Assembly: GCF_022818495.1 (NCBI RefSeq)
Contig: NZ_CP089291.1
Span: forward strand, 310,001-374,000
Direction of reading: 5' to 3'
Length of the DNA: 64,000 bases
Source of the DNA: Fodinisporobacter ferrooxydans
GTDB lineage: Bacteria > Bacillota > Bacilli > Tumebacillales > MYW30-H2
Each line of letters starts with the position of its first letter. The first letter of the stretch is position 1. Of the stretch, positions 50,782 through 54,225 are shown in pieces. A program made the translations under genes and the position numbers. A model generated the notes under the pieces. The model was not told the origin of the DNA. It saw nothing but the letters and a program-made list of their open reading frames with translations, and ran no database searches.

Positions 50782-51495
50782 TCATATATTGAGGTTCTTT
50801 TCTCTTGTAGTCAGCCAGTTTTTATGAACGACCTGCAAATATTCCCGCATGGTTTGCTCCGCCAAATTGGGCTGCTGCCGTTTCACTGCATCATATATAT
50901 CCTGCAATTGTTTTAAAACGATATGCAAATATTGTGTTTCATTATGTACGAGTTGAATCACACTGCGCAAAGGCTCCGCAATAATGGACATGTAATTCAT
51001 AAAAATCGAATTATGAGTTGCTTCTGCAAGATAGATATGAAAATATATATCTTCACGGGCCCGAATCTCCGGATCTGTTGCTATTTCCAAATTGAACAAC
51101 ATTTGTGCCAATTTCGAAAGATCTTCTTCATTCCTTCGTTCTGCTGCAAATTTGGCAATCCCTGTTTCCATTAAAAAACAAACGTCCATCAATTCATTCA
51201 TGTGATTTACGCCAAGCAAAAAGGCTGCATTCATCGGCTGTGTAATTCTTTCCACATCAACCGTATGGACAAATGTCCCTTCCCCGTGACGAAGATCTAT
51301 CAGACCCATCCCCTGCAGAGCGCTAAAAGCTTCACGGACTGTTGCACGGCTCACACCGAACTGTACAGACAATTCTTTTAGCGGCGGCAACTTATCTCCC
51401 GGCTTCAGTTCACCTGCTGCAATCATTTGGCGTATCTGATCCGCCACTTGTTCGTAAATTTTTTTTGACCGAATTTTTTTTACTTCCATGGTCAC
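50782..51495 (-). CDS. GntR/FadR-family transcriptional regulator
   Basis: A 237-residue protein; GTG 51495 follows AAAGG at five bases, with ATG two codons later as an alternative. Residues 8-75 are a GntR winged helix (KIYEQVADQIRQMIAAGEL, KELSVQFGVSRATVREAFSAL). Residues 95-230 form the helical FCD ligand-binding domain (MDVCFLMETGIAKFAAERR, DIYFHIYLAEATHNSIF) with the usual metal-binding Asp and His. Relatives sense lactate, gluconate or other acids. No obvious target operon is adjacent. Confidence 0.9.
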   Translation of the reverse strand: MTMEVKKIRSKKIYEQVADQIRQMIAAGELKPGDKLPPLKELSVQFGVSRATVREAFSALQGMGLIDLRHGEGTFVHTVDVERITQPMNAAFLLGVNHMNELMDVCFLMETGIAKFAAERRNEEDLSKLAQMLFNLEIATDPEIRAREDIYFHIYLAEATHNSIFMNYMSIIAEPLRSVIQLVHNETQYLHIVLKQLQDIYDAVKRQQPNLAEQTMREYLQVVHKNWLTTREKNLNI

Positions 51496-51864: not shown

Positions 51865-52512
51865 TTAGTCTCTGCGTAAACTTACTCCAAAAAAGCGCAA
51901 GATAAAAATAAACAGGTTTACGAAATCCAGATAAAGACTTAAAACAACCAGCGGTACGTCTTCCTGCGCCACGCCATAACGGGCAATTCGGCTTACATCA
52001 AACAATACATAGCCGATAAAGATGAGGATGCCGATTACACTGTATATCATTTCCGCTTGCGTGGAGAACGGAATAAAAATGTTTACAATCCCCATCCCCA
52101 CAAGCGCAAGCACGCCCATAAACAAAAATCCGCCCAAGAAATTAAAATTTGCCTTGGATATGGCTGCATACGCGGCTGCACCGCCAAAGGCGATGACTGT
52201 TACTAGAAATGCACGGTAAATGATGTCAATTCCATATTGATACGCAAAATTATAAACAATCGGGAACAATGTCATGCCCGAAATAAATGTGAACGTATAG
52301 ACAAAAGCGAACCCGACTGCTCTTCTGCGCCGCATGAAAGTAGCAGCGAAGATCATGACTACTTCAATGATCGAGAGCGGCAGAAAGAAAGCGCCCGGTA
52401 CAAATTGTCCTGCATATAGTCCAATCGTACCGATCAACAAGCTCAAGAAAAAGCTCGGCAACACGCGTGCAGGCCCATACTGCCGTTGTGACACAGAACC
52501 ATAATCATACAT
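51865..52512 (-). CDS. Bax inhibitor-1 (YccA/BI-1) family membrane protein
   Basis: A 215-residue protein from ATG 52512 (MYDYGSVSQRQYGPA), with AAGGAGG eight bases before it; the longer frame lacks such a site. Seven hydrophobic helices follow, e.g. FFLSLLIGTIGLYAGQFV, VGFAFVYTFTFISGMTLFP and IYSVIGILIFIGYVLFDVSRI. The last contains the conserved Asp (LFDVSRI) of the BI-1 di-Asp pH sensor, and a second Asp follows in YLDFVNLFIFILRFF. Family members are H+/Ca2+ leak channels or membrane protease modulators. Confidence 0.9.
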   Translation of the reverse strand: MYDYGSVSQRQYGPARVLPSFFLSLLIGTIGLYAGQFVPGAFFLPLSIIEVVMIFAATFMRRRRAVGFAFVYTFTFISGMTLFPIVYNFAYQYGIDIIYRAFLVTVIAFGGAAAYAAISKANFNFLGGFLFMGVLALVGMGIVNIFIPFSTQAEMIYSVIGILIFIGYVLFDVSRIARYGVAQEDVPLVVLSLYLDFVNLFIFILRFFGVSLRRD

Positions 52513-52816
52513 AGAGAATCCCTCCTTAAATCGTATTGTATAACAAAATTGCAATTTTTTCACTAATTCTCGCTGATTTTGGCCGATCCTGCTGCCGCCA
52601 CATGTTTCTATTACTTATATATGGCTTGCCCTCCTGATTCATACTGCTGAAACCATTAGCTTCGTCAACCTTTTTCGCCAAACTTTTCGGCGCAGTGCTT
52701 TAGCGCTTGAGTCGAGACTTATCCCCATGTGGGGATTATACTATTGACATCTAAAATTTTTACTTTCCGATAGTACAAGATACTTTAATTATCATTTTAT
52801 CCAATTCCGGCAATTG

Positions 52817-53113
52817 TTAACACCCGGACAATCCGTTTGGCCTGCTGATCATGAATTCGTCCTGTTCCACATCATAATCAATCGAAAGGCTCTGCAGATA
52901 ATTCAGAGCAAATGGGTCGATATAAAAAGCAATATCTTGCATGTGCAACGTTTGATCACCGGTTATTGACTCATCCAGAGTCAGTTTGAATGATGCCCCG
53001 CCTCAGCCAGGTACGACAGATACACGGACACCCGTGCTTTCCGACTCACCCGCCAAAATGTCTTTCAACTTCTTCGCTGCTTCTTCCGATACGAAAAACG
53101 GCTGTTTATCCAT
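52817..53113 (-). CDS. HesB/IscA-like protein with in-frame UGA (probable selenoprotein)
   Basis: From ATG 53113 (GGAG eight bases upstream) the minus strand reads 36 codons (MDKQPFFVSEEAAKKLKDIL...GVRVSVVPG), then TGA at 53003-53005. It continues GGASFKLTLDESITGDQTLH...DIAFYIDPFALNYLQSL and DEFMISRPNGLSGC, stop 52817. Total 98 codons, the family's usual size. The TGA takes the place of the first conserved Cys of the A-type Fe-S scaffold family (IscA-like SGCSG), and the final Cys is present. A hairpin with stem TGACTC/GAGTCA and loop TGGAT lies about 19 nt past the TGA, as in bacterial SECIS elements. It follows mutY by five bases. A nonsense mutation is the alternative. Confidence 0.72.
52964..52986 (-). 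promoter_or_regulatory. Candidate bacterial SECIS hairpin
   Basis: The minus strand has TGACTC, loop TGGAT, GAGTCA (52967-52983), extendable by one or two pairs. The loop carries GG, and its start is about 25 nt after the UGA. Spacing and loop agree with known bacterial SECIS rules, but it was found by eye. Confidence 0.6.
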
Positions 53114-53118
53114 AATTT

Positions 53119-54225
53119 TCACTCCATCCCCTTCCACTTTGAAAGAATTTTCAGATGAACATTCGGAAACGTAAATTGTTCCAACTCCTCAATCGGTACA
53201 AAACAGTGGCCGCTGTCTTTATCTGAAACTTGCGCCAGGAGCGATTGCTCGCTCTCTGACAGGAAACATTTATACACATTCATGTTCCATTTAATATGAG
53301 AAAATACGTGTTGTACCGTAAAAAAACGCTCACCTATTTGCAATCGGAAACCATATTGTTCATAAAAAGAGGTTTGCAGTGATGTTGGCTCATCCTCTCC
53401 TGTCACCTCATATGTAGGCAACTGCCATAATCCGGCCAGCAAGCCCTCATTGGAACGGCGGTTTATCCAAATCTTCCGCTCCTGCTCGATCAGCGGGACA
53501 ACGATCTGTTGTTCCCGGGGCGGTTTCTTTTTTTCTTTGACAGGCAGCTCTTTTTGTACGCCTTCCGCGTATGCCCGACAGACGGTTTGAACCGGGCAGC
53601 CCAAACAGCGCGGATTGCCGGGAATGCATACAAGCGCGCCGAGTTCCATGAGACCTTGGTTAAACTGGCTTGCTTTTCCGGTTGGAATCATCTGCTGAAC
53701 CATCTGCTCAATCGTTTTCCGTGTTTTTTGTTTGCCAATATCATCGTACAAATAAAATACGCGGGAAATCACGCGCATGACATTTCCGTCTACAGCGGGA
53801 ATTTCCTTATTATATGCGATGCTAAGGACTGCACCCAACGTATACGGGCCAACGCCTGGCAAGTTTCCCATGGCATCCGGCTCATCCGGTACGATTCCAT
53901 TATAATGTGTTTGTACTTCCCGCACCGCTTGATGCAAATTGCGCGCACGGGAATAATACCCCAAACCTTCCCACGCTTTTAAAACGCGGTCTTCCGGTGC
54001 GTCCGCCAGTTCCTGAAGTGTGGGGAACTGCTCCATAAATCGTTCGTAATAGGGAATGACAGCTTCTACGCGAGTCTGCTGCAGCATGATTTCCGATACC
54101 CATATTCGATACGGATCCCGTTCTCTTCTCCACGGCAGTTGACGTTTGTTTTTTTCATACCATTGCACCAAAAGGTCTGCAAACGCCATTGCCTGATGCT
54201 GATCATATCTCTGTGTATGTTTCAA
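53119..54225 (-). CDS. mutY: A/G-specific adenine glycosylase
   Basis: A 368-residue DNA-repair enzyme that removes A opposite 8-oxoG. Motifs: RIWVSEIMLQQTRVEAVIPYYERF (catalytic Glu of the family), the HhH-GPD motif NLPGVGPYTLGAVLSIAYN with IPAVDGNVMRV (catalytic Asp), and the 4Fe-4S cluster CIPGNPRCLGCPVQTVC. The C-terminal NUDIX-like 8-oxoG recognition domain spans about residues 235-365. It is co-oriented with the HesB-like gene just downstream, which is notable because MutY itself carries a 4Fe-4S cluster. Confidence 0.96.
   Translation of the reverse strand: MKHTQRYDQHQAMAFADLLVQWYEKNKRQLPWRRERDPYRIWVSEIMLQQTRVEAVIPYYERFMEQFPTLQELADAPEDRVLKAWEGLGYYSRARNLHQAVREVQTHYNGIVPDEPDAMGNLPGVGPYTLGAVLSIAYNKEIPAVDGNVMRVISRVFYLYDDIGKQKTRKTIEQMVQQMIPTGKASQFNQGLMELGALVCIPGNPRCLGCPVQTVCRAYAEGVQKELPVKEKKKPPREQQIVVPLIEQERKIWINRRSNEGLLAGLWQLPTYEVTGEDEPTSLQTSFYEQYGFRLQIGERFFTVQHVFSHIKWNMNVYKCFLSESEQSLLAQVSDKDSGHCFVPIEELEQFTFPNVHLKILSKWKGME

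Follow-up and report, generated by a model that had tools for sequence, protein, structure and literature searches.

A mutY-linked gene with an in-frame UGA as a probable selenoprotein gene of the PF01521 (A-type Fe-S carrier) superfamily in Fodinisporobacter ferrooxydans

In the window (the whole stretch of DNA that was analysed, 64,000 nucleotides of the Fodinisporobacter ferrooxydans genome), a short frame resembling the A-type Fe-S proteins follows directly behind mutY and is interrupted by a single TGA. The question that this locus raises is whether the TGA marks a broken gene or is read as selenocysteine (Sec), and what the product may do in the latter case. The initial annotation had proposed a HesB/IscA-like selenoprotein. 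We consider it very probable (about 95%), judging from sequence comparison, that the locus is a live selenoprotein gene in which UGA37 is decoded as Sec. This reading is supported by the Sec machinery of the genome, by an alignment column that holds either TGA or Cys, by a covarying hairpin and by the lack of other stops in the relatives.

The gene and its surroundings

The frame of 98 codons with one in-frame TGA at codon 37 was borne out by translation, and the strand, which the initial annotation had not given, is the minus strand. Reading of the frames revealed no gene on the plus strand of the same span. With U standing for the TGA of codon 37, the translation reads MDKQPFFVSEEAAKKLKDILAGESESTGVRVSVVPGUGGASFKLTLDESITGDQTLHMQDIAFYIDPFALNYLQSLSIDYDVEQDEFMISRPNGLSGC, the context of the UGA being VVPG-U-GGASFKLTLDE and Cys98 standing at the C-terminal end. 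The stop codon TGA of mutY (53121-53119) is followed by five bases and then by the ATG of the gene, exactly the gap that had been noted, and the mutY gene is identified by its match to TIGR01084 (354.8 bits, cut-off 286.5). The ribosome-binding site, described earlier as good, is a GGAG 8 nt before the ATG. The features of the locus are as follows.

52817..53113, minus strand: putative selenoprotein CDS, 98 codons and TAA stop, UGA37 read as Sec (translation; PF01521; 13 same-order homologues with TGA in the same column)
53003..53005, minus strand: in-frame TGA, putative Sec codon 37, at the position of the first ligand Cys in IscA/SufA/ErpA (translation, alignments)
52967..52983, minus strand: SECIS-like hairpin TGACTC-TGGAT-GAGTCA, 19 nt past the TGA, G at loop position 2 (covariation in 21 Sec genes; sole motif match in the window; covariance model)
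52820..52822, minus strand: Cys98 codon, matching the first Cys in the C-terminal CxC of A-type carriers (alignments)
53122..53125, minus strand: GGAG ribosome-binding site (sequence)
53119..54225, minus strand: mutY, A/G-specific adenine glycosylase, directly upstream, linkage conserved (TIGR01084; synteny)
51865..52563, minus strand: multi-pass membrane protein, downstream, conserved neighbour (synteny; no NCBIfam match), which we take to be of the Bax-inhibitor-1 type
50782..51495, minus strand: regulator of the GntR/FadR type, a neighbour that part of the order has kept (subfamily-level matches under cut-off; synteny)

Decoding of the in-frame UGA

The components that would be needed for the insertion of Sec, which the initial annotation had advised searching for, are all present in the genome (4.86 Mb, one contig), and selD is present twice. 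The tRNA-Sec with the anticodon UCA scores 60.5 bits against a gathering score of 47, selA scores 598.7 bits, and selB scores 387.5 bits over two segments of a single frame. The two selD genes are different from each other and each carries one internal TGA; one of them follows directly behind selA (G000:C1:2684348-2686658) and the second lies at G000:C1:147069-147986. No selA, selB or selD was recognised among the ORFs listed for a 20-kb stretch around the tRNA-Sec, and selA and selD lie about 16 kb from the tRNA-Sec.

The protein search of 61 genomes returned about 80 matches, 32 of which contain one internal stop. This stop is TGA in 32 of 32 cases, never TAA or TAG, and in the alignments it shares a column with the first ligand Cys at every one of these loci. 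Each of the 13 other genomes in the order has a closest homologue that carries TGA at this codon, is otherwise free of internal stops and shows no frameshift, and the TGA form is found outside the order in 5 further genomes of the class, which appears to be Bacilli. In two genomes of the class (G033 and G052), the closest homologue has Cys in the Sec column (PGCGG), so that this column is occupied by TGA or Cys, as would be expected from the initial proposal. In six within-genus pairs, the sequence downstream of the TGA shows dN of 0.021-0.139 against dS of 0.10-1.31, which indicates that the reading frame past the TGA is under purifying selection.

The cut-off for selB is exceeded in 31 of the 61 genomes, and every genome with the TGA form (19 of 19) has selB or tRNA-Sec. 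One of them, G001, has tRNA-Sec and no selB over the cut-off; G003 and G010 have selB and no tRNA-Sec match, and both are fragmented assemblies, as are those of several relatives. The two genomes with the Cys-type closest homologue, G033 and G052, have no selB, selD or tRNA-Sec over the cut-offs. As separate observations, G001 is rated 100% complete and contains a TGA-bearing selD, TGA-bearing A-type genes and tRNA-Sec, yet no selB over the cut-off, and G005 has a second tRNA-Sec-like match (G005:C14:71129-71219, 55.9 bits), which lies 13 kb away from its main match.

The hairpin, which the initial annotation had placed about 19 nt past the TGA, is present at precisely this distance and is conserved with compensatory changes. 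A comparable stem (at least 6 pairs, G early in the loop) occurs at 13% of the 2343 TGAs in the window, hence the hairpin alone is weak evidence and single-sequence stability does not discriminate. The exact family motif occurs once in the 64 kb (0 mismatches), where 0.15 occurrences are expected at up to 2 mismatches. The combination of TGA and hairpin is more than chance because it is conserved across the relatives. In the alignment of 21 Sec genes (14 homologues plus 7 genes of a paralogous subfamily), the hairpin lies at the same place without gaps, and 95.2% of the pair cells are standard-paired compared to 14-45% if the partners are slid by 1-3 columns. Three pairs change on both sides, the pair types being GC/AU/GU and CG/UA, and the covariation score is 0.298 against 0.196±0.020 for shuffled alignments (0/500). 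In one covarying pair a Val/Ala substitution is matched with a GAA/GAG change in a nearby Glu codon; the latter change is synonymous, and protein constraint therefore fails to explain the covariation of this pair. A hairpin of this kind is absent from the Cys homologues of G033 and G052.

Searched with a covariance model built on the hairpin region, the whole genome yields three places. The first is the window gene (E 9.7e-8), which is itself a training member, and the second is another HesB-like TGA gene (C1:3439103). The third (C1:135791-135847, E 0.0019) belongs to a PF01521 protein with Sec at the same position that had been missed by the protein search; for the Sec reading, this match counts as a success outside the training sample.

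With these data, a decaying copy of iscA/hesB that has suffered a nonsense mutation, to which the single in-frame stop in an A-type gene and the divergence and long branch of the protein might point, is scarcely credible in view of the TGA shared with 13 other genomes of the order, never TAA or TAG and free of frameshifts, the strong purifying selection past it, the conserved hairpin and the Sec machinery. Scattered stops or frameshifts in the relatives, named beforehand as the sign of a pseudogene, were looked for and none was seen. The comparative data (the TGA column, the absence of other stops, dN/dS) rule out a pseudogene or a sequencing error, and together with the TGA at the end of mutY they rule out an alternative genetic code.

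UGA read-through exists in bacteria, and the codon might be decoded as some other residue (by tRNA suppression or read-through as Cys or Trp), or only a 36-residue fragment might be made. We regard this as very improbable: the genome has tRNA-Sec and SelB, the TGA form is limited to genomes with selB or tRNA-Sec, the covarying hairpin lies at SelB distance, and the upstream mutY ends in TGA, which means that TGA is a normal stop in this genome. In the Sec reading, SelB with Sec-tRNA-Sec(UCA) would bind the hairpin 19 nt past UGA37 and insert selenocysteine.

Family, fold and possible chemistry

HesB-like selenoproteins have been known since the mid-2000s and were verified by 75Se labelling in M. 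maripaludis (PMC1794560, PMC11097638, PMC13188914). The 2026 inventory of 119 prokaryotic selenoprotein families contains one HesB-like entry, TIGR01911, with the motif UxGP (PMC13188914). The window protein shares with this type (HesB_rel_seleno) the PF01521 domain, the UGA at the first ligand Cys, the shape and distance of the hairpin and the single C-terminal Cys; it differs in the linkage to mutY, in scoring under the TIGR01911 cut-off (28.9 bits against 66.35), in having UGGA instead of UxGP (UGGP is found in some homologues, e.g., those of G002, G006 and G010), and in forming with its subfamily a separate subtree, the deep forks of the tree of 68 A-type proteins being weakly supported, so that the tree does not establish a single origin of Sec for this subfamily. 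PF01521 (Fe-S_biosyn) is passed with 38.6 bits against the Pfam gathering cut-off of 26.3. The protein remains under the cut-off of TIGR00049 (50 against 58.8 bits) and also under that of NF038090 (IscA_HesB_Se; 43.8 against 85 bits), with which it has the A-type domain in common and whose name suggests that Sec forms are included. Its close relatives are likewise under the NCBIfam cut-offs. The UGGA motif and these scores indicate that the selenoprotein represents, by its sequence, a subfamily of PF01521 that is a divergent sister to the known HesB-like selenoproteins, and that it is not a TIGR01911 member. The window protein itself sits on a long branch (1.33) and is 34-44% identical to its homologues, thus its orthology rests on synteny as well as on sequence.

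The predicted fold of the selenoprotein is that of IscA (A-type). The AlphaFold2 model, built on the homologue alignment, has a pLDDT of 82, with a disordered C-terminus (pLDDT < 50), and the best solved structures for it are all A-type: E. coli IscA (1r94, Z 13.2, rmsd 1.9 over 93 residues), IscA with a [2Fe-2S] cluster (1x0g, Z 12.4) and SufA (2d2a, Z 11.9). Foldseek agrees, and a profile search against solved A-type proteins gives the same group (best E 6e-17). Compared to IscA, SufA and ErpA, the window protein keeps the fold and two of the three ligand positions. Sec37 aligns with their first cluster-ligand Cys, as the initial annotation had claimed for the TGA, and Cys98 with the first Cys of their C-terminal CxC; the chain ends there, and the third canonical ligand, the second Cys of the CxC, is missing. 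The statement that the remaining residues are well conserved for an A-type scaffold is partly correct, given the missing second Cys and the scores under all the curated NCBIfam cut-offs. The Cys-type homologues of G033 and G052 are similar to the window protein in having PGCGG for PGUGG, in the C-terminal Cys and in 37% identity; they differ in having Cys instead of Sec, with no hairpin, no mutY neighbour and no Sec machinery.

The product would accordingly be a 98-residue protein of the IscA (A-type, PF01521) fold in which Sec37 replaces the first cluster-ligand Cys and Cys98 is the only other conserved ligand. It would most likely act as an Fe-S or Fe-binding carrier or as a repair or redox protein, Sec37 and Cys98 of a dimer either ligating the metal or forming a reversible selenenylsulfide.

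The position next to mutY raises the possibility that the protein is a maturation factor dedicated to MutY, supplying its 4Fe-4S cluster or repairing it. Among the 13 other loci of the order, 11 have mutY upstream at a distance of no more than about 1.5 kb, and many have a conserved membrane protein downstream. The linkage to mutY is probably ancestral to the order, and the gene, its UGA and its hairpin would be equally old. Most bacteria have a working MutY and no such gene. A small gene or a longer gap usually intervenes between mutY and the selenoprotein gene, G007 and G012 have no mutY within 1.5 kb of the latter, and in G033 and G052 the Cys homologues do not have mutY as a neighbour; these intervening genes, together with the location of the Cys homologues, argue against a strict MutY-only role. 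We find such a role improbable: of the interest attached earlier to the position by mutY, the conserved synteny stands, while the link to the cluster of MutY is speculation.

A thiol-selenol redox enzyme, in which Sec37 and Cys98 would form a selenenylsulfide on an A-type fold with no function as a metal carrier, is a serious contender that nevertheless falls somewhat short of even odds. The protein has one C-terminal Cys besides Sec, which is kept in 13 of the 14 Sec rows of the alignment, and Sec/Cys pairs are typical of redox selenoproteins (PMC13188914). Furthermore, the mutant in the HesB-like selenoprotein of M. maripaludis, a protein visible by 75Se labelling, still fixes nitrogen without a defect (PMC11097638). 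Against this, the protein shares both its fold and its ligand position with the Fe-S carriers, and the C-terminus is disordered in the model. For the metal-carrier or repair chemistry of the selenoprotein we would put the chances at about even. The narrower idea of a selenium-ligated Fe-S carrier, with Sec37 and Cys98 of the dimer holding the cluster, the protein being one of several Sec A-type paralogues and the Fe-S trafficking of the order running partly on selenium, is rather unlikely.

Other selenocysteine A-type genes and the meaning of the finding

Several further Sec genes of the same superfamily were seen. One family of the order has a second, paralogous Sec subfamily (L048-L052, L056, L057; PGUGGPxYxLALDEP) with the same hairpin. 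The class also contains other diverged Sec A-type proteins (L060, L061, L038, L039, L062; PGUCGPQF, MSUGGPQL and TGGUGTLIDF types), their hairpins being partly shifted by 3 nt. The genome of F. ferrooxydans itself has the second HesB-like TGA gene (L046, G000:C1:3439007-3439294, plus strand; GVGUGGPNYGMTLEES), which scores 47.1 against the TIGR01911 cut-off of 66.35, and the third Sec PF01521 gene (L100, G000:C1:135791-135847, minus strand; EGGUGAGIQFDMVLDEP), which shares 32% identity with the TGGUGT-type protein of L038.

The canonical ErpA of one genus in this order (G002, G006 and G008) has TGA for its first Cys and an intact CGCG motif; that of G008 scores 130.5 bits against the ErpA cut-off of 117. 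The three loci are as follows.

L089, G008:C108:10809-11153: Sec-ErpA
L090, G002:C32:33374-33718: Sec-ErpA
L094, G006:C1:1428559-1428903: Sec-ErpA

The hairpin of these genes is different (TGGCAC-TGGATC-GTGCCA) and lies at the same place. In the tree of A-type proteins Sec-ErpA is nested among the Cys-ErpA proteins with strong support (99/94 and 100/93), which points to an independent change of Cys to Sec, apparently one that affected a core carrier of Fe-S clusters. Of four genomes, two (G002 and G008) showed no Cys-ErpA besides Sec-ErpA; G006 has both forms, and G010 has the Cys form only.

The locus adds to the known selenoproteins an order-wide subfamily that lies under the current NCBIfam cut-offs. 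Such UGA genes are likely to be annotated as truncated or to be missed by standard gene callers. The set of about 32 Sec/UGA A-type genes, with their Cys counterparts and a covarying SECIS, makes the function of HesB-like proteins testable, including the question of whether selenium ligates or transfers Fe-S clusters. Sec-ErpA would tie selenium to a core step of Fe-S trafficking, and if the selenium-ligated carrier reading is true, the genus whose canonical ErpA carries Sec depends on selenium for its Fe-S biogenesis.
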